31,613 nt of DNA from a virus, in IMG/VR virus record IMGVR_UViG_3300034101_002990, positions 1 to 31,613 of that record; one strand, given 5' to 3'. The notes below the pieces were generated by a model that was given only the letters and a program-made list of their open reading frames with translations, was not told the origin of the DNA and did no database searches. Positions within the stretch are counted from its first letter, which is position 1. Each line of letters begins with the position of its first letter. Below, piece after piece: positions 25,043-30,792 of the stretch. The translations under genes were made by a program, and so were the position numbers.

Positions 25043-26344
25043 ATGCAGCATTTTGTATTCCCGGCGCAAGTGGTGCCTGTTAATGCGGCTACTGAGACAA
25101 CCCTGACAGAAATACTGTCAGGGGAGCAAGACCTTAACTCTAAATTAAACTTTGACGCTTTTTCTAAACTAAGAGTCTCACAATCTTATGGTTTGCTAGA
25201 GTCTAAATTTTTATTCGGCAAACAACCGACCGTGTGGGAAGATATTACAGACACAAGCGGCGTCTCTACTTATTTGTCTGATGAGTCCGCGGTTCATATC
25301 CAAGTTGGCAGTGGAGCAAATGATTATTGCTTACGACAAACCTACATGTACTTTCCTTATATCGCAGGCAACGGTCAGCGCATCTTACTCACTGGTAACT
25401 TTGAGAGCAAAGAAACTGGACGAGTAAAGCGCATTGGTTACTTTGATAACTACAATGGTGTTTTTTTTGAGTTAGCTTCAGATGACCTTTATGTAGTTGT
25501 TAGATCAAACACGTCCGGCAGCCCAGTAGATACAAGAGTCAAGAGAACTGACTTCAATATTGATAAACTAGATGGCACTGGACCTAGTGGCATCACTATT
25601 GACTTCTCGATGCGGCAAATCTTTTTGATTCAATTTCAGTGGTTGGGTGTCGGCACTGTGTCTTATGGATTTAGTTTCAATGGAAAAATTTATTTATGTC
25701 ACCAAATACACCACGCAAACACTGGTACAACAACTTACATGGCAAACCCTAATTTGCCTGTGAGATATGAAATAAGAAATACAGGCACACCAACGGGCAC
25801 CGGCAGCATGAAGCAAATCTGTACTTCAGTAGCAAGTGACGGCGGTTATCAGATACCCGGCTATGAGTTTGCAGCGGGCAACGGAGCGACTGGCAAGTCA
25901 GTGTCAACAACTAGGACCATGGTCTTAGCAATTCGATTAAAAACGTCATTCAACGGAAAGCCTAACCGTCGCCTCGTTCGTTTGAAGCAAATGGACGCAC
26001 TAGCAATTTCAGGTAATGCCTATCTTGAAATTATTAAAGTGTCGGGTGTTACTGCAACCACGGGCACATGGTCAGACGTAGAAAATGATTCTTGCATAGA
26101 AATATCGACAAACATTAGTGCCTATACTGCGACAGATGAACATAAGCTAGATGCTGTCTATATCGCTTCAGGAAATGGAGGCACAGGCGGCGGTATTGCA
26201 AGTGAGTTTACCACGCTCGGTCATAACAGCGTGATTTCTCAAAACTATGCTTGCACTCAATCAAGTATGTTTGTTGTTTATGCAACGGCGACGAGTGGAA
26301 CGCTAACAACTTACAACTCTCTAAGTTGGACGGAGTTTGAATAA
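25043..26344 (+). CDS. Phage virion structural protein, 433 aa
   Basis: It resembles a widely distributed structural protein of aquatic phages, with the patterns FDAFSKLRVS (about 39-48), QTYMYFPYIAGNGQRILLTG and LDGTGPSGITIDFS followed by WLGVGTVSYGFSFNG. It is beta-rich throughout, without signal or transmembrane segment. A 9-bp hairpin (25101-25123) lies in its first 27 codons. It is encoded between the ejection and lysis genes and has a small beta-rich protein overlapped at its stop. It is probably a tail-tip or head-surface component. Confidence 0.8.
   Translation: MQHFVFPAQVVPVNAATETTLTEILSGEQDLNSKLNFDAFSKLRVSQSYGLLESKFLFGKQPTVWEDITDTSGVSTYLSDESAVHIQVGSGANDYCLRQTYMYFPYIAGNGQRILLTGNFESKETGRVKRIGYFDNYNGVFFELASDDLYVVVRSNTSGSPVDTRVKRTDFNIDKLDGTGPSGITIDFSMRQIFLIQFQWLGVGTVSYGFSFNGKIYLCHQIHHANTGTTTYMANPNLPVRYEIRNTGTPTGTGSMKQICTSVASDGGYQIPGYEFAAGNGATGKSVSTTRTMVLAIRLKTSFNGKPNRRLVRLKQMDALAISGNAYLEIIKVSGVTATTGTWSDVENDSCIEISTNISAYTATDEHKLDAVYIASGNGGTGGGIASEFTTLGHNSVISQNYACTQSSMFVVYATATSGTLTTYNSLSWTEFE
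25101..25123 (+). other. Perfect 9-bp hairpin near start of a late gene
   Basis: CCCTGACAG (25101-25109) and CTGTCAGGG (25115-25123) form a perfect 9-bp inverted repeat with loop AAATA, 58 bases into the coding sequence. No T-run follows. It may influence mRNA processing or expression, or serve as a binding site. It is striking because long GC-rich arms are rare in this AT-rich genome. Confidence 0.5.
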
Positions 26345-27572: not shown

Positions 27573-28180
27573 TGATTTTTGTTGATTGGATTCAAGCAAT
27601 CTTTAGAAAACCGACCTATGATCATGATGAAGTTAATATCATTGGAACGACAAAAAACCCCGACTGGAATGCACTTTGGACAACTTGCATTGTCGATAAA
27701 GACAGAACCGTAGAAATTGGTTTGATTTGCAAAAAGATTTTAGACAATAAACTAAAGTACGAAGCCGTAGAAATGAAGACAGGCGTTCCTTGGTATTTAA
27801 TAGCAGCATTACATTACCGCGAAGCTTCTTTAAATTTTAAAACCTGCTTGCATAATGGCGACCCGTTACCTGGACCCACTAAGCACGTTCCAAAAGGTCG
27901 AGGGCCTTTTAAAACTTGGGAGGAGGCAGCGATTGATGCGATTAAATACGATGGCCTAGACCATTTAAAATTTAAAACAACAACAAGTTGTCTTGTAATG
28001 TCCGAAAAGTACAACGGTCTAGGAATGCGCAATAAAGGCTTATACACCCCTTATGTGTGGGCAGGTACAAACCATAGTCCTGAGGTTGGTAAATACACCG
28101 CAGATGGCATCTACAATCCTTTGGCTAGGGAAAAACAACTGGGAGTAGCTGCAATCTTTAAGGGCTTGGGAATTTCTTAG
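27572..28180 (+). CDS. Endolysin/peptidoglycan hydrolase, 202 aa
   Basis: The core sequence TGVPWYLIAALHYREASLNF (about 70-89) holds a Glu (E84) in a lysozyme-like setting, followed by CLHNGDPL, TWEEAAIDAI and NGLGMRNKGLYTPYVWAGTN, a pattern I know from phage lysozyme-like endolysins. It starts in TAATG behind AAAGGATAAA and has no signal peptide, so it depends on a holin-like partner. Its 3' end overlaps the convergent minus-strand operon by 23 bases. Catalytic identity is inferred from similarity. Confidence 0.85.
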   Translation: MIFVDWIQAIFRKPTYDHDEVNIIGTTKNPDWNALWTTCIVDKDRTVEIGLICKKILDNKLKYEAVEMKTGVPWYLIAALHYREASLNFKTCLHNGDPLPGPTKHVPKGRGPFKTWEEAAIDAIKYDGLDHLKFKTTTSCLVMSEKYNGLGMRNKGLYTPYVWAGTNHSPEVGKYTADGIYNPLAREKQLGVAAIFKGLGIS

Positions 28181-28355
28181 AAACGGAAAGTAAACCCATA
28201 CGGCGATAATTTGATAATTCCTGGGTGGTAAATTTATTACGTTTACCACCTCTAAATTCAATACATCTTTTTGTGCAAAAAACTTGTTTGCTAGTCGCAA
28301 GTACCCTGTAAGATTTATGACAAGAAGGGCAAACCCTCGTTTGCAATTCAAGCAT
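28158..28355 (-). CDS. Small zinc-ribbon/zinc-finger protein, 65 aa
   Basis: This is the last gene of the minus-strand operon. Two cysteine pairs, VCPSC (C9, C12) and FCTKRC (C27, C31), would bind one zinc, and a basic linker (RGGKRNKF) follows. The start overlaps the SAM-decarboxylase-like stop by eight bases, so the two are coupled. It may bind DNA, RNA or protein; the partner is unknown. Its end overlaps the endolysin gene tail-to-tail, with a strong hairpin inside. Confidence 0.7.
   Translation of the reverse strand: MLELQTRVCPSCHKSYRVLATSKQVFCTKRCIEFRGGKRNKFTTQELSNYRRMGLLSVSKKFPSP
28224..28250. other. Symmetrical hairpin between convergent operons
   Basis: GGTGGTAAA (28224-28232) and TTTACCACC (28242-28250) form a perfect 9-bp stem with a 9-base loop, at the point where the late plus-strand and early minus-strand units converge. 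It has no T-run on either strand but could halt or protect both transcripts. It lies inside the zinc-ribbon gene. Confidence 0.5.
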
Positions 28356-28740
28356 GATTTAACTTTCTAACTTCAGTCACTACAAAGTTATCATTTCTAT
28401 CAATAACCATGGATTCATAATTAATTAAATCCCATTCTTTCAGCTTCATAATGACTGTATCTGCATCAAACTCTTTGCATGAGTAGACGTCCATTTGCAC
28501 GATGTTCGGCTTTACATCGGACCAAATATGAACAGAGCAATGACTCGTTTCAAGCCCACATTGCCCTGTCAAACCTTCATTGCCGGGAGTAGTAACATAA
28601 AAAGAACGGGGTTCTATGACTAATTTCATTCTAATATCTGCCACAAGTTCTCTGAGCCATTCATTTAACTCGTACTCAGTTGTAGGGGCCTCGTTAACAT
28701 TAGCTTTAATCAATAAATGTTGGTGAAATAATTTTTGCAT
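28348..28740 (-). CDS. speD: S-adenosylmethionine decarboxylase-like protein, 130 aa
   Basis: This protein resembles class 1 bacterial SpeD/SpeH proenzymes, which cleave themselves to create a pyruvoyl group and decarboxylate SAM for spermidine synthesis. The core matches: TSHCSVHIW (residues 65-73) aligns with the ESH.TIHTW signature, giving pyruvoyl serine S66, H71 (five on) and C88 in MDVYSCKEFD (22 on; usual spacing 20). The residue before S66 is Thr where Glu is usual. The length is normal for the small form. Phages of other hosts carry speD as an auxiliary gene. Activity and natural substrate are not shown. Confidence 0.78.
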   Translation of the reverse strand: MQKLFHQHLLIKANVNEAPTTEYELNEWLRELVADIRMKLVIEPRSFYVTTPGNEGLTGQCGLETSHCSVHIWSDVKPNIVQMDVYSCKEFDADTVIMKLKEWDLINYESMVIDRNDNFVVTEVRKLNHA

Positions 28741-28770: not shown

Positions 28771-29139
28771 TCAATCTTTCATTTCTAAAATTTTTCTAGC
28801 TTCTTGCTTAATACTTTCAATAATCAAAGTTTTTGGCTCATCTAATTCTAAAATTTCTTGCAATAAATTTATCGCAGCTTCAGCCTTTGTTTTCTTTTTG
28901 ATGGGTTGAATACAAACAACACGGGCTTCAAGAACATCACGAACGTCTAAAGTTAACGGTTCAATAGTAGAGTTATTTTTTAATGCAATCCATGATTCAG
29001 AAGCATTTCCGCTATAAATTACAGGCGTACCTTGCAATGCTTGTTCAAGATCTTCTGCATGAACAACATACATATCATCTGAATTATAATCATAATGTAC
29101 GTTTATTCCCATTGCCTCGATCAAAGGATATTTAGTCAT
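28771..29139 (-). CDS. Hypothetical protein, 122 aa
   Basis: It starts at ATG 29139 in the junction cassette (GGGGGAGTGATG). The N-terminal half is mixed alpha/beta (YPLIEAMGINVHYDYNSDD, then HAEDLEQALQGTPV), and the C-terminal third is a Lys/Glu-rich helix (about 80-122). No known domain is seen. It sits between the Gly-rich gene and the SAM-decarboxylase-like gene. Confidence 0.7.
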   Translation of the reverse strand: MTKYPLIEAMGINVHYDYNSDDMYVVHAEDLEQALQGTPVIYSGNASESWIALKNNSTIEPLTLDVRDVLEARVVCIQPIKKKTKAEAAINLLQEILELDEPKTLIIESIKQEARKILEMKD

Positions 29140-29150
29140 CACTCCCCCGT
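29137..29150 (-). promoter_or_regulatory. Gene-junction cassette, copy 1 (RBS + TGATG)
   Basis: This is the minus-strand ACGGGGGAGTGATG core, shared with three upstream junctions. Here only the core is kept. The preceding gene ends 16 bases earlier at TAA instead of reading into the TGA of the cassette. Confidence 0.75.
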
Positions 29151-29154
29151 TGAT

Positions 29155-29448
29155 TTACCAGCCATTACCATTGCCATAGCCATTGCCATCGCCATATCCA
29201 TAGCCATATCCATAGCCATATCCATTGCCAAAGCCATAGCCATTGCCAAAGCCATCGCCATTGCCGCCATTGCCATTGCCGCCATCGCCATAGCCATCGC
29301 CATTGCCATCGCCATCGCCATTGCCATAGCCATCGCCAAAGCCATAGCCATTGCCATCGCCATCGCCATCGCCATAGCCATAGTCATAGCCATAGCTATA
29401 ACCAATTATTGATTGTTGGTTTTCAAAATTTATAGTTTGTTTTGCCAT
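29155..29448 (-). CDS. Gly-(Tyr/Asp/Asn/Phe) repeat protein, 97 aa
   Basis: After MAKQTINFENQQSIIG, the rest is Gly at every second position, alternating with Tyr, Asp, Asn or Phe (GYGDGNGYG), ending NGNGW. It is coded by a near-perfect GGC-NAT hexanucleotide array. I prefer this frame because it has an ATG with a non-repetitive start, keeps aromatic residues where TTT replaces TAT, and never shows the CAT (His) codon. Alternating Gly with acidic and aromatic residues suggests a disordered, condensate-prone, adhesive or calcium-binding chain. No family is known. The start lies inside the upstream gene, which it overlaps by 19 bases. Confidence 0.6.
   Translation of the reverse strand: MAKQTINFENQQSIIGYSYGYDYGYGDGDGDGNGYGFGDGYGNGDGDGNGDGYGDGGNGNGGNGDGFGNGYGFGNGYGYGYGYGYGDGNGYGNGNGW
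29158..29399. repeat. Hexanucleotide repeat array (GGCNAT on the minus strand)
   Basis: About 240 bp consist almost only of tandem ATGGCN / CCATNG-type units in which one position varies among A, G and T but not C on the minus strand. A few 3-base interruptions (NGGNG) keep every frame open. All three minus frames and one plus frame are free of stops here, which produces several false reading frames. Confidence 0.95.
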
Positions 29449-29744
29449 TTTTTTTGATCTGCAGAAATTGATAAAACAATTGTCAATTCATTAAATTCAA
29501 CAAGACCGTAGCATTTATCTAATATTGTTTTATCCGTTGGTCCTTCATTTGCTAATTCGCCTAAACCATTTGTTGTTCCCCAAACGCGAACTACACTCGC
29601 ATTGTGTAATTTGCATTTATCGCTTTCTTGTTCAAAAGTGCCAATCAAAACCCAACCTCTTTGCAGTACAACGATTTTCAAATTACCTTTGATATCTGGT
29701 TGTTCAGAATAATATACTTTTCCGTTAACTGTAATTGTTTCCAT
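29430..29744 (-). CDS. Conserved phage hypothetical protein, 104 aa
   Basis: It contains GNLKIVVLQRGWVLIGTFEQ followed by VVRVWGTTNGLGELANEGPT (about 54-73), a pattern found in many phages as a small protein of unknown function. The C terminus is beta-rich. ATG 29744 overlaps the preceding TGA (TGATG). No enzymatic residues can be named. In related phages such proteins are early-region, non-structural products. Confidence 0.75.
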   Translation of the reverse strand: METITVNGKVYYSEQPDIKGNLKIVVLQRGWVLIGTFEQESDKCKLHNASVVRVWGTTNGLGELANEGPTDKTILDKCYGLVEFNELTIVLSISADQKKWQNKL

Positions 29745-29765
29745 CACTCCCCCGTAGTTTCTAAT
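29742..29765 (-). promoter_or_regulatory. Gene-junction cassette, copy 2
   Basis: Read on the minus strand: ATTAGAAACTACGGGGGAG then TGATG. It encodes the C-terminal LETTGE of the upstream gene, then supplies the ribosome-binding site GGGGGAG and the TGATG stop-start overlap. It is nearly identical to the copies at 30008 and 30475. Confidence 0.85.
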
Positions 29766-30010
29766 TCATAAGTCAGTTCAAAAATGTCAGGTTTACAGGG
29801 ATAGAATTCGCCTTTGATGCCTTTGATTATCCAGTCGCCCATATTAGCAATATGATTTCCTTCAAGCGTATAGATAACCAAATGAGAATCAGCTTCTTGC
29901 TCAATTACACACCGGCCAAATGAAGAACCCCAAGCATTTAACATCGGTGAAATATCATTGCTATTAAATTGTATTGCTTCAATAATAACAGGCTTTTTTC
30001 TATATTTCAT
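29744..30010 (-). CDS. Conserved phage hypothetical protein, 88 aa
   Basis: It carries KPVIIEAIQFNSNDI near the start and GDWIIKGIKGEFYPCKPDIFE (split over residues 58-78), a widespread small phage protein pattern of unknown function. It ends LETTGE, the tail common to junction cassettes. Both ends overlap neighbours by one base through TGATG. It is probably an early protein. Confidence 0.82.
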   Translation of the reverse strand: MKYRKKPVIIEAIQFNSNDISPMLNAWGSSFGRCVIEQEADSHLVIYTLEGNHIANMGDWIIKGIKGEFYPCKPDIFELTYELETTGE

Positions 30011-30031
30011 CACTCCCCCGTAGTTTCTAAT
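30008..30031 (-). promoter_or_regulatory. Gene-junction cassette, copy 3
   Basis: It is the same sequence as 29742-29765 on the minus strand (ATTAGAAACTACGGGGGAG then TGATG), giving the upstream protein its LETTGE end and the downstream gene its ribosome-binding site and start. Confidence 0.85.
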
Positions 30032-30477
30032 TTAACTTCATTTAATAAAAGCTTAACAGTATTCTCATAGGCTTTTGTTAATAATTCAGGACTAATGTGT
30101 TCTTGTCTATATTGTCCGCTGCGAGCTATGCCAGCCATCACGCCATCAATGATTTGATCAATTATATCAATTAGGTTTACATCATCTTGAATAAATTTTG
30201 AATTGTTAAAATGATGTCGTTCTTTTTCTTGATGTAGTTCCCACCAATCAACCTCTTTCCATCCTGATTTAAAATTACGGTAAAAGTCATCAATATGACT
30301 TAATTTTGTTAAATCGTGATTTGCTGACTGTTTCAACATTAGTAAAATAAAAAAATCAAAACCTTTTTTAATATCTGATAAATGTAAATTAGTGCTTTCA
30401 AGCAATTGTTCTTTTGTTACTTTTGAAAAATCACAAGTCCTAGAATCTGCCGTTGTGCTTTTTTTAATATAAATCAT
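30010..30477 (-). CDS. Conserved phage hypothetical protein with HD-like motifs, 155 aa
   Basis: The helical protein has NHDLTKLSHIDDFY (about 53-66), EKERHHFN (about 85-92) and DDVNLIDIIDQIIDGVMAG (about 98-116). The repeated HD/HH and Asp residues could bind a metal, as in HD-like folds, and similar phage proteins of unknown function are known to me. It ends LETTGE. I use ATG 30477 in TGATG; GTG 30480 is a three-base alternative. Metal binding is inference. Confidence 0.72.
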   Translation of the reverse strand: MIYIKKSTTADSRTCDFSKVTKEQLLESTNLHLSDIKKGFDFFILLMLKQSANHDLTKLSHIDDFYRNFKSGWKEVDWWELHQEKERHHFNNSKFIQDDVNLIDIIDQIIDGVMAGIARSGQYRQEHISPELLTKAYENTVKLLLNEVKLETTGE

Positions 30478-30498
30478 CACTCCCCCGTAATTTCTAAT
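30475..30498 (-). promoter_or_regulatory. Gene-junction cassette, copy 4
   Basis: On the minus strand it reads ATTAGAAATTACGGGGGAG then TGATG, differing from the other long copies by one base. It codes LEITGE at the end of the 25-residue peptide and starts the next gene. Confidence 0.82.
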
Positions 30499-30554
30499 TT
30501 ATTTAAAATTTGATTAGCATATTCAGCACTATCGCAAGTTGGGTATCTATACAT
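30477..30554 (-). CDS. Very small peptide, 25 aa
   Basis: ATG 30554 lies in the last codons of the regulator gene (overlap of eight bases) and runs 25 codons, MYRYPTCDSAEYANQ to LEITGE, ending in the junction cassette. The coupling on both sides and the shared C-terminal tail argue that it is translated. It may be a leader, a remnant of a longer gene swapped out at the cassette, or a real peptide. Confidence 0.5.
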   Translation of the reverse strand: MYRYPTCDSAEYANQILNKLEITGE

Positions 30555-30792
30555 TTTCAATTATTGATCGAGTTAAAGCATTCACTTTGGTGCTTATCAG
30601 CATATTTACAGTATATTCAAAGTCTACTTTATACATTCGACACAATGTCTTTAAATCTTTCACAGGTGGGGTGCTAATACCACGCTCCCAGTTACTAACA
30701 AACTGAGCAGTAGTGTAACCTAGTTTGTTCGCTACATCCCTTTGAGATAACTTCGCTCTAATACGCGCACTTTTTAAAAAATCTTTCATCAT
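30547..30792 (-). CDS. Cro/XRE-family transcriptional regulator, 81 aa
   Basis: Residues about 10-62 form a Cro/C1-type helix-turn-helix: LSQRDVANKLGYTTAQFVSN, then WERGISTPP, typical of XRE repressors. There is no C-terminal cleavage domain, so it is a Cro-like or antitoxin-like regulator rather than a LexA-like repressor. AGAGG is 2 bases before ATG 30792 and 5 before ATG 30789, so the second may be used. As the first regulator of the minus operon, with AT-rich inverted repeats upstream, it may control its own promoter. Confidence 0.88.
   Translation of the reverse strand: MMKDFLKSARIRAKLSQRDVANKLGYTTAQFVSNWERGISTPPVKDLKTLCRMYKVDFEYTVNMLISTKVNALTRSIIENV

Follow-up and report, generated by a model that had tools for sequence, protein, structure and literature searches.

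A large phage branch of SpeD-derived pyruvoyl decarboxylases is already known, and the protein described here is most likely a new, divergent member of the arginine type. The pelagiphage HTVC201P protein annotated as an S-adenosylmethionine decarboxylase (AdoMetDC; AXH71538) was reported by Li et al. in 2023 to be a pyruvoyl-dependent arginine decarboxylase; the purified enzyme has a kcat/Km of 290 M-1 s-1, does not decarboxylate ornithine or lysine, and does not restore spermidine in an E. coli delta-speD strain (PMC9992855). The same paper describes BAR31446, a marine phage protein close to the HTVC201P enzyme that increased agmatine in E. coli, five homologues from freshwater phages that are ornithine decarboxylases (ODCs), one of them also with clear arginine decarboxylase (ADC) activity, and the SpeD of Sinorhizobium phage phiN3, which complementation showed to be a true AdoMetDC (PMC9992855).

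The ODC group, referred to as SpeDC, occurs in phages, bacteria and archaea, and PMC10407285 gives it four diagnostic residues, Gln, Thr, Phe and Tyr; in the same paper, a Pro is described as completely conserved in true AdoMetDCs. Microcystis phage MaAM05 (MW495066.1; L009, 986-3333) has a cluster that is annotated with two SpeD-like genes plus speE and speB, and one of the two SpeD copies has the HTWPE motif, while the other is without the proline (HSFID). If the HSFID copy is an arginine decarboxylase, this phage could encode arginine-to-spermidine synthesis.

The gene, its family and the predicted fold

The stretch of DNA analyzed here, a 31,613-base IMG/VR virus record (the window), has an intact reading frame with an ATG start at positions 28,348-28,740 on the minus strand that encodes a 130-aa protein. 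A preliminary description, made from the sequence alone, had called this product AdoMetDC-like, and membership in the class 1b fold family is borne out. The protein scores 36 bits (E 9e-9) against Pfam AdoMet_dc (PF02675), above the curated cut-off of 25, and it matches PHROG 3125 'S-adenosylmethionine decarboxylase' with an E of 1e-10; these two matches take the identification of the gene beyond chance. The closest proteins among annotated phages are pelagiphage 'S-adenosylmethionine decarboxylases' (33-37% identity). Single-sequence patterns found no close relatives of the window protein in IMG/VR; with the family alignment as the query, at least 547 IMG/VR stretches encode relatives, and the best 80 were retained.

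The catalytic trio that had been proposed, S66, H71 and C88, aligns with the pyruvoyl Ser, processing His and catalytic Cys of class 1b AdoMetDC (S63, H68 and C83 in Thermotoga maritima) and is without variation across 15 aligned homologues and likewise across 40. As had also been noticed, T65 is present where bacterial AdoMetDCs carry Glu, i.e., AESH becomes ETSH. The codons of this processing motif, E64-T65-S66-H67, are at 28,540-28,551 (minus strand), and cleavage is predicted between T65 and S66, which would make S66 the pyruvoyl serine. In a 40-sequence alignment of the phage clade, T65, S66, H67, H71, W73, Q82, D84, Y86 and C88 are unvarying. Given this invariance, a Thr ahead of the serine is characteristic of the clade and not a defect. 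As for the suggestion that the Thr might alter self-processing, this residue is invariant in both the phage clade and the SpeDC clade, and the tested members of the SpeDC clade are active pyruvoyl enzymes, which makes it compatible with cleavage. Judging from these residues, self-processing before S66 is likely.

An AlphaFold2 model, built from the window protein aligned with 39 relatives, has a pLDDT of 93.5 and a pTM of 0.87, and it contains the AdoMetDC alpha/beta sandwich. Among solved structures, it best matches two class 1b AdoMetDCs, those from T. maritima and Aquifex aeolicus; T. maritima 1tlu has Foldseek TM scores of 0.75/0.82 and a VIA Z of 14.3 with 2.0 A over 110 residues. Thus, the predicted structure confirms the class 1b AdoMetDC fold, but a fold in common with AdoMetDC does not settle the substrate. 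The protein could also be a decaying, inactive copy, since it is a divergent single copy that is missing from kin phages (see below). However, the frame is intact, all of the invariant catalytic residues are retained and the fold is predicted with confidence, and we consider decay to be highly improbable.

The phage SAM lyase 6zm9 is weakly similar to the model (TM 0.38 by Foldseek, Z 7.0 by VIA), and a reading of the protein as a SAM lyase was rejected on this weakness. A wider alternative is that the protein uses some other substrate, or that it is regulatory or binds SAM, for instance as a SAM-lyase-like counter-defense protein. The similarity to 6zm9 would fit such a role, as would the departures of the window protein from the 40-sequence alignment at near-invariant positions (G43 to E, I63 to L and E75 to D). 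However, the 6zm9 match is far weaker than those to the AdoMetDCs (TM 0.38 versus 0.75-0.82; Z 7.0 versus 14.3) and, with S66, H71 and C88 all intact, a pyruvoyl enzyme is to be expected, so this alternative seems very unlikely.

Motifs and phylogenetic placement

In genomes sampled from two groups, the motif of the AdoMetDC-like proteins, AESHISIHTWPE, is cleanly distinct from that of the SpeDC-like proteins, QLIETS...HF...YLDVFSC. The window motif, TGQCGLETSHCSVHIWSD...VQMDVYSC, is without the diagnostic Gln, Phe and Tyr and without the Pro. We assigned the Gln, Phe, Tyr and Pro columns ourselves from the sequences compared here, with the SpeDC columns taken from 32 QTFY-type rows. By these columns, the window has C61, T65, I72 and Q82 at the Gln, Thr, Phe and Tyr positions, so that the Thr alone is present, and it reads HIWSD instead of HTWPE.

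A genuine AdoMetDC that raises spermidine or lowers SAM would share the fold and the catalytic trio with the window protein, as do the class 1b enzymes (SpeD/SpeH) of T. maritima (TM0655; 1tlu, 1vr7) and A. aeolicus (2iii). However, these enzymes are only 14-19% identical to the window protein, which has Thr in place of Glu, lacks the HTWPE proline and scores 24.4 bits against the TIGR03330 AdoMetDC equivalog, 51 bits short of the cut-off of 75.65. True phage AdoMetDCs do exist, and phiN3 SpeD is a reminder that residue signatures are fallible: it complements a speD mutant and yet, like the window protein, it is a phage class 1b homologue without the HTWPE proline, and it is near the ODC/QTFY clade. 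The phiN3 protein differs from the window protein in having Asp before the Ser and, as in the QTFY group, Gln, Phe and Tyr, and it belongs to a separate clade. Since the window protein groups instead with phage arginine decarboxylases that fail speD complementation, a genuine AdoMetDC is in our view improbable.

The first tree had 100 rows, and in it the window protein is within a 50-row phage clade that includes the pelagiphages (support 100/99). For the second tree, the long-branch rows were dropped and 25 QTFY-type IMG/VR phage proteins were added, out of a phage group with at least 571 matches in IMG/VR. Here too, the ETSH phage proteins and the window protein grouped together (99/99), and a separate clade was formed by the QTFY rows (97/92). 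In both trees, HTVC201P (row pel_L006) is with the window protein in a clade that leaves out SpeDC and AdoMetDC (100/99 and 99/99), and the window protein is apart from the AESH..HTWPE AdoMetDC-like proteins.

These trees also bear on the possibility that the gene encodes a pyruvoyl-dependent L-ornithine decarboxylase like SpeDC, which would make putrescine directly. The window protein and the SpeDC enzymes share the AdoMetDC fold, the Thr before the pyruvoyl Ser and, by prediction, pyruvoyl chemistry, the QTFY clade is nearest to the phage clade in the first tree (99/92), and the five freshwater homologues mentioned above are ODCs, including the one with ADC activity. However, the window has just one of the four diagnostic residues given in PMC10407285, Thr65, with Cys61, Ile72 and Gln82 at the Gln, Phe and Tyr positions. 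The second tree places the window protein outside the SpeDC clade and in another one (99/99), a result in which QTFY-type sequences from IMG/VR and genomes stand in for the tested phage ODCs (LBP, UCP01-04). Therefore, we regard an ornithine decarboxylase as unlikely.

Several other sequences display patterns of their own. A bacterial contig (L139, from genome G420, which is of the same class as Rhodospirillales bin G011) encodes a protein that falls near the phage clade (E 1.7e-30), perhaps from a prophage gene. Six loci in small genomes of the G010 phylum (L119, L120, L122, L125, L128 and L138) encode a very divergent SpeD-like group with the motif PGWSFIQPITTSHISGHYF, which forms a long branch adjoining phiN3 SpeD in the tree. 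Finally, frames of 457 and 477 aa (L144 in genome G468 and L145 in G343) hold a QTFY-type SpeD domain, with a second SpeD-type match 1.3-2.6 kb away, and may be relatives of the paired and fused SpeD-SpeDC proteins that PMC10407285 describes.

The substrate and a proposed role

On balance, and by a modest margin over even chances, we believe that the product of 28,348-28,740 is a self-cleaving proenzyme of the AdoMetDC fold that decarboxylates a basic amino acid, the likeliest reaction being L-arginine to agmatine (SpeDA-like), and that SAM is not its substrate. The fold family, the conserved processing and catalytic residues and the placement in the clade of a proven arginine decarboxylase support this assignment, and the arginine-type reading follows from the tested members of the same phage branch, which decarboxylate arginine instead of SAM. 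The HTVC201P enzyme is of similar size (122 versus 130 aa) and shares with the window protein the ETSH motif, W73, Q82, D84, Y86, C88 and R115. The two proteins are 32% identical and differ at S-5, which is Gln in the tested enzyme and Cys61 in the window, and in having WDE versus WSD.

Two tested members of the clade are known, HTVC201P directly and BAR31446 indirectly, and both are of the pelagiphage type; in the second tree, the window protein is outside a 28-row group that contains the pelagiphages (89/85). It is conceivable, but improbable, that the window protein and its nearest phage relatives (L017, L018 and L022-L024), which are placed outside the pelagiphage sub-clade, have a substrate other than arginine. 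If so, these lineages would represent another substrate switch within the SpeD fold.

For an arginine decarboxylase, the following steps can be proposed. Self-cleavage of the proenzyme just ahead of S66 would produce a C-terminal chain that begins with a pyruvoyl group; this group would bind arginine as a Schiff base, and loss of CO2 would then yield agmatine. Schiff base formation and CO2 loss are the established chemistry of pyruvoyl decarboxylases. Host enzymes would then convert the agmatine to putrescine and on to longer polyamines during infection, and the usual suggestion for such genes is that polyamines support phage translation or DNA packing. Among 48 viral records that carry the clade gene, neither a spermidine synthase nor a member of the agmatinase/arginase family was found; many of these records are fragments, and so the absence of partner genes is weak negative evidence. 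The missing spermidine synthase speaks weakly for the arginine reading, and the missing agmatinase family speaks against it.

The preliminary description had taken SAM as the substrate, and this part of it is not supported: the clade-mate HTVC201P decarboxylates arginine and fails in speD complementation, and the TIGR03330 score is low. With SAM unsupported, the two roles that had been proposed, AdoMetDC-dependent spermidine synthesis and a SAM drain against host defenses, are unsupported as well, and the window gene offers no support for a new anti-defense mechanism. Most likely it is an auxiliary metabolic gene that feeds polyamine synthesis and not a SAM-consuming or anti-defense enzyme. 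The arginine-type phage clade now reaches an unrelated small phage. Hundreds of phage genes annotated as AdoMetDC/SpeD, in two groups (at least 547 and at least 571), are probably misannotated, as the motifs of both groups indicate arginine or ornithine and not SAM. The change of Glu to Thr before the cleavage serine would be a quick sequence flag for both of these non-SAM groups.

The genomic setting

The decarboxylase gene and its small minus-strand neighbors form a row under an HTH regulator, whereas the HTVC201P gene is just ahead of ribonucleotide reductase genes. The regulator (30,547-30,792, minus strand) is of the Cro/C1 type, heads the row and matches Pfam HTH_3 (44.7 bits) and the PHROG transcriptional regulators. 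Downstream of the decarboxylase, at 28,158-28,355 (minus strand), is a gene for a 65-aa zinc-ribbon-like protein with two Cys pairs (CPSC...FCTKRC) and weak matches to YacG (E 0.02) and an HNH PHROG (E 0.004); its first 8 nt overlap the end of the decarboxylase gene, and so the two genes are probably co-translated. The upstream neighbor, 30 nt away at 28,771-29,142 (minus strand), encodes a 123-aa product with no family match in Pfam or PHROG searches. Hence, of the 'early minus operon' beside a zinc-ribbon gene that had been described, the small minus-strand genes, the regulator and the adjoining two-Cys-pair gene are present, while 'early' is inferred from position. A promoter scan of the window gave a site count not above that in shuffled sequence.

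The terminase, portal and capsid proteins are 60-79% identical to those in two kin records (G005 and G006). No AdoMet_dc gene was found in the phages whose terminase, portal, capsid and tail genes are related to those of the window, which makes the decarboxylase an accessory gene, and none of the minus-strand genes of the window was matched in these phages. As for host clues, no tRNA or Rfam element was found in the window, and the closest annotated relative for portal, terminase and capsid, a phage from Silvanigrella aquatica, is too distant (22-27% identity) for naming a host.

The window has some additional features. An AGCCAT-like hexanucleotide is repeated about 42 times at 29,160-29,404, and a minus-strand ORF over this repeat (29,155-29,448) encodes a low-complexity protein rich in Gly, Asp, Asn and Tyr. 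A 41-nt repeat is present at successive gene junctions (29,728-29,768, 29,994-30,034 and 30,461-30,501), with a shorter trace near 29,139; the copies share a C-terminal ...ETTGE/EITGE, followed by a ribosome-binding stretch (GGGGGAG) and a start that overlaps, and they resemble a cassette boundary that has been reused along the row of minus-strand genes. Finally, the 433-aa product of 25,043-26,344 and the corresponding G006 protein share 91% identity, compared with about 40-62% for the neighbors in that record, and this difference suggests a recent exchange of a putative tail or receptor-binding gene.
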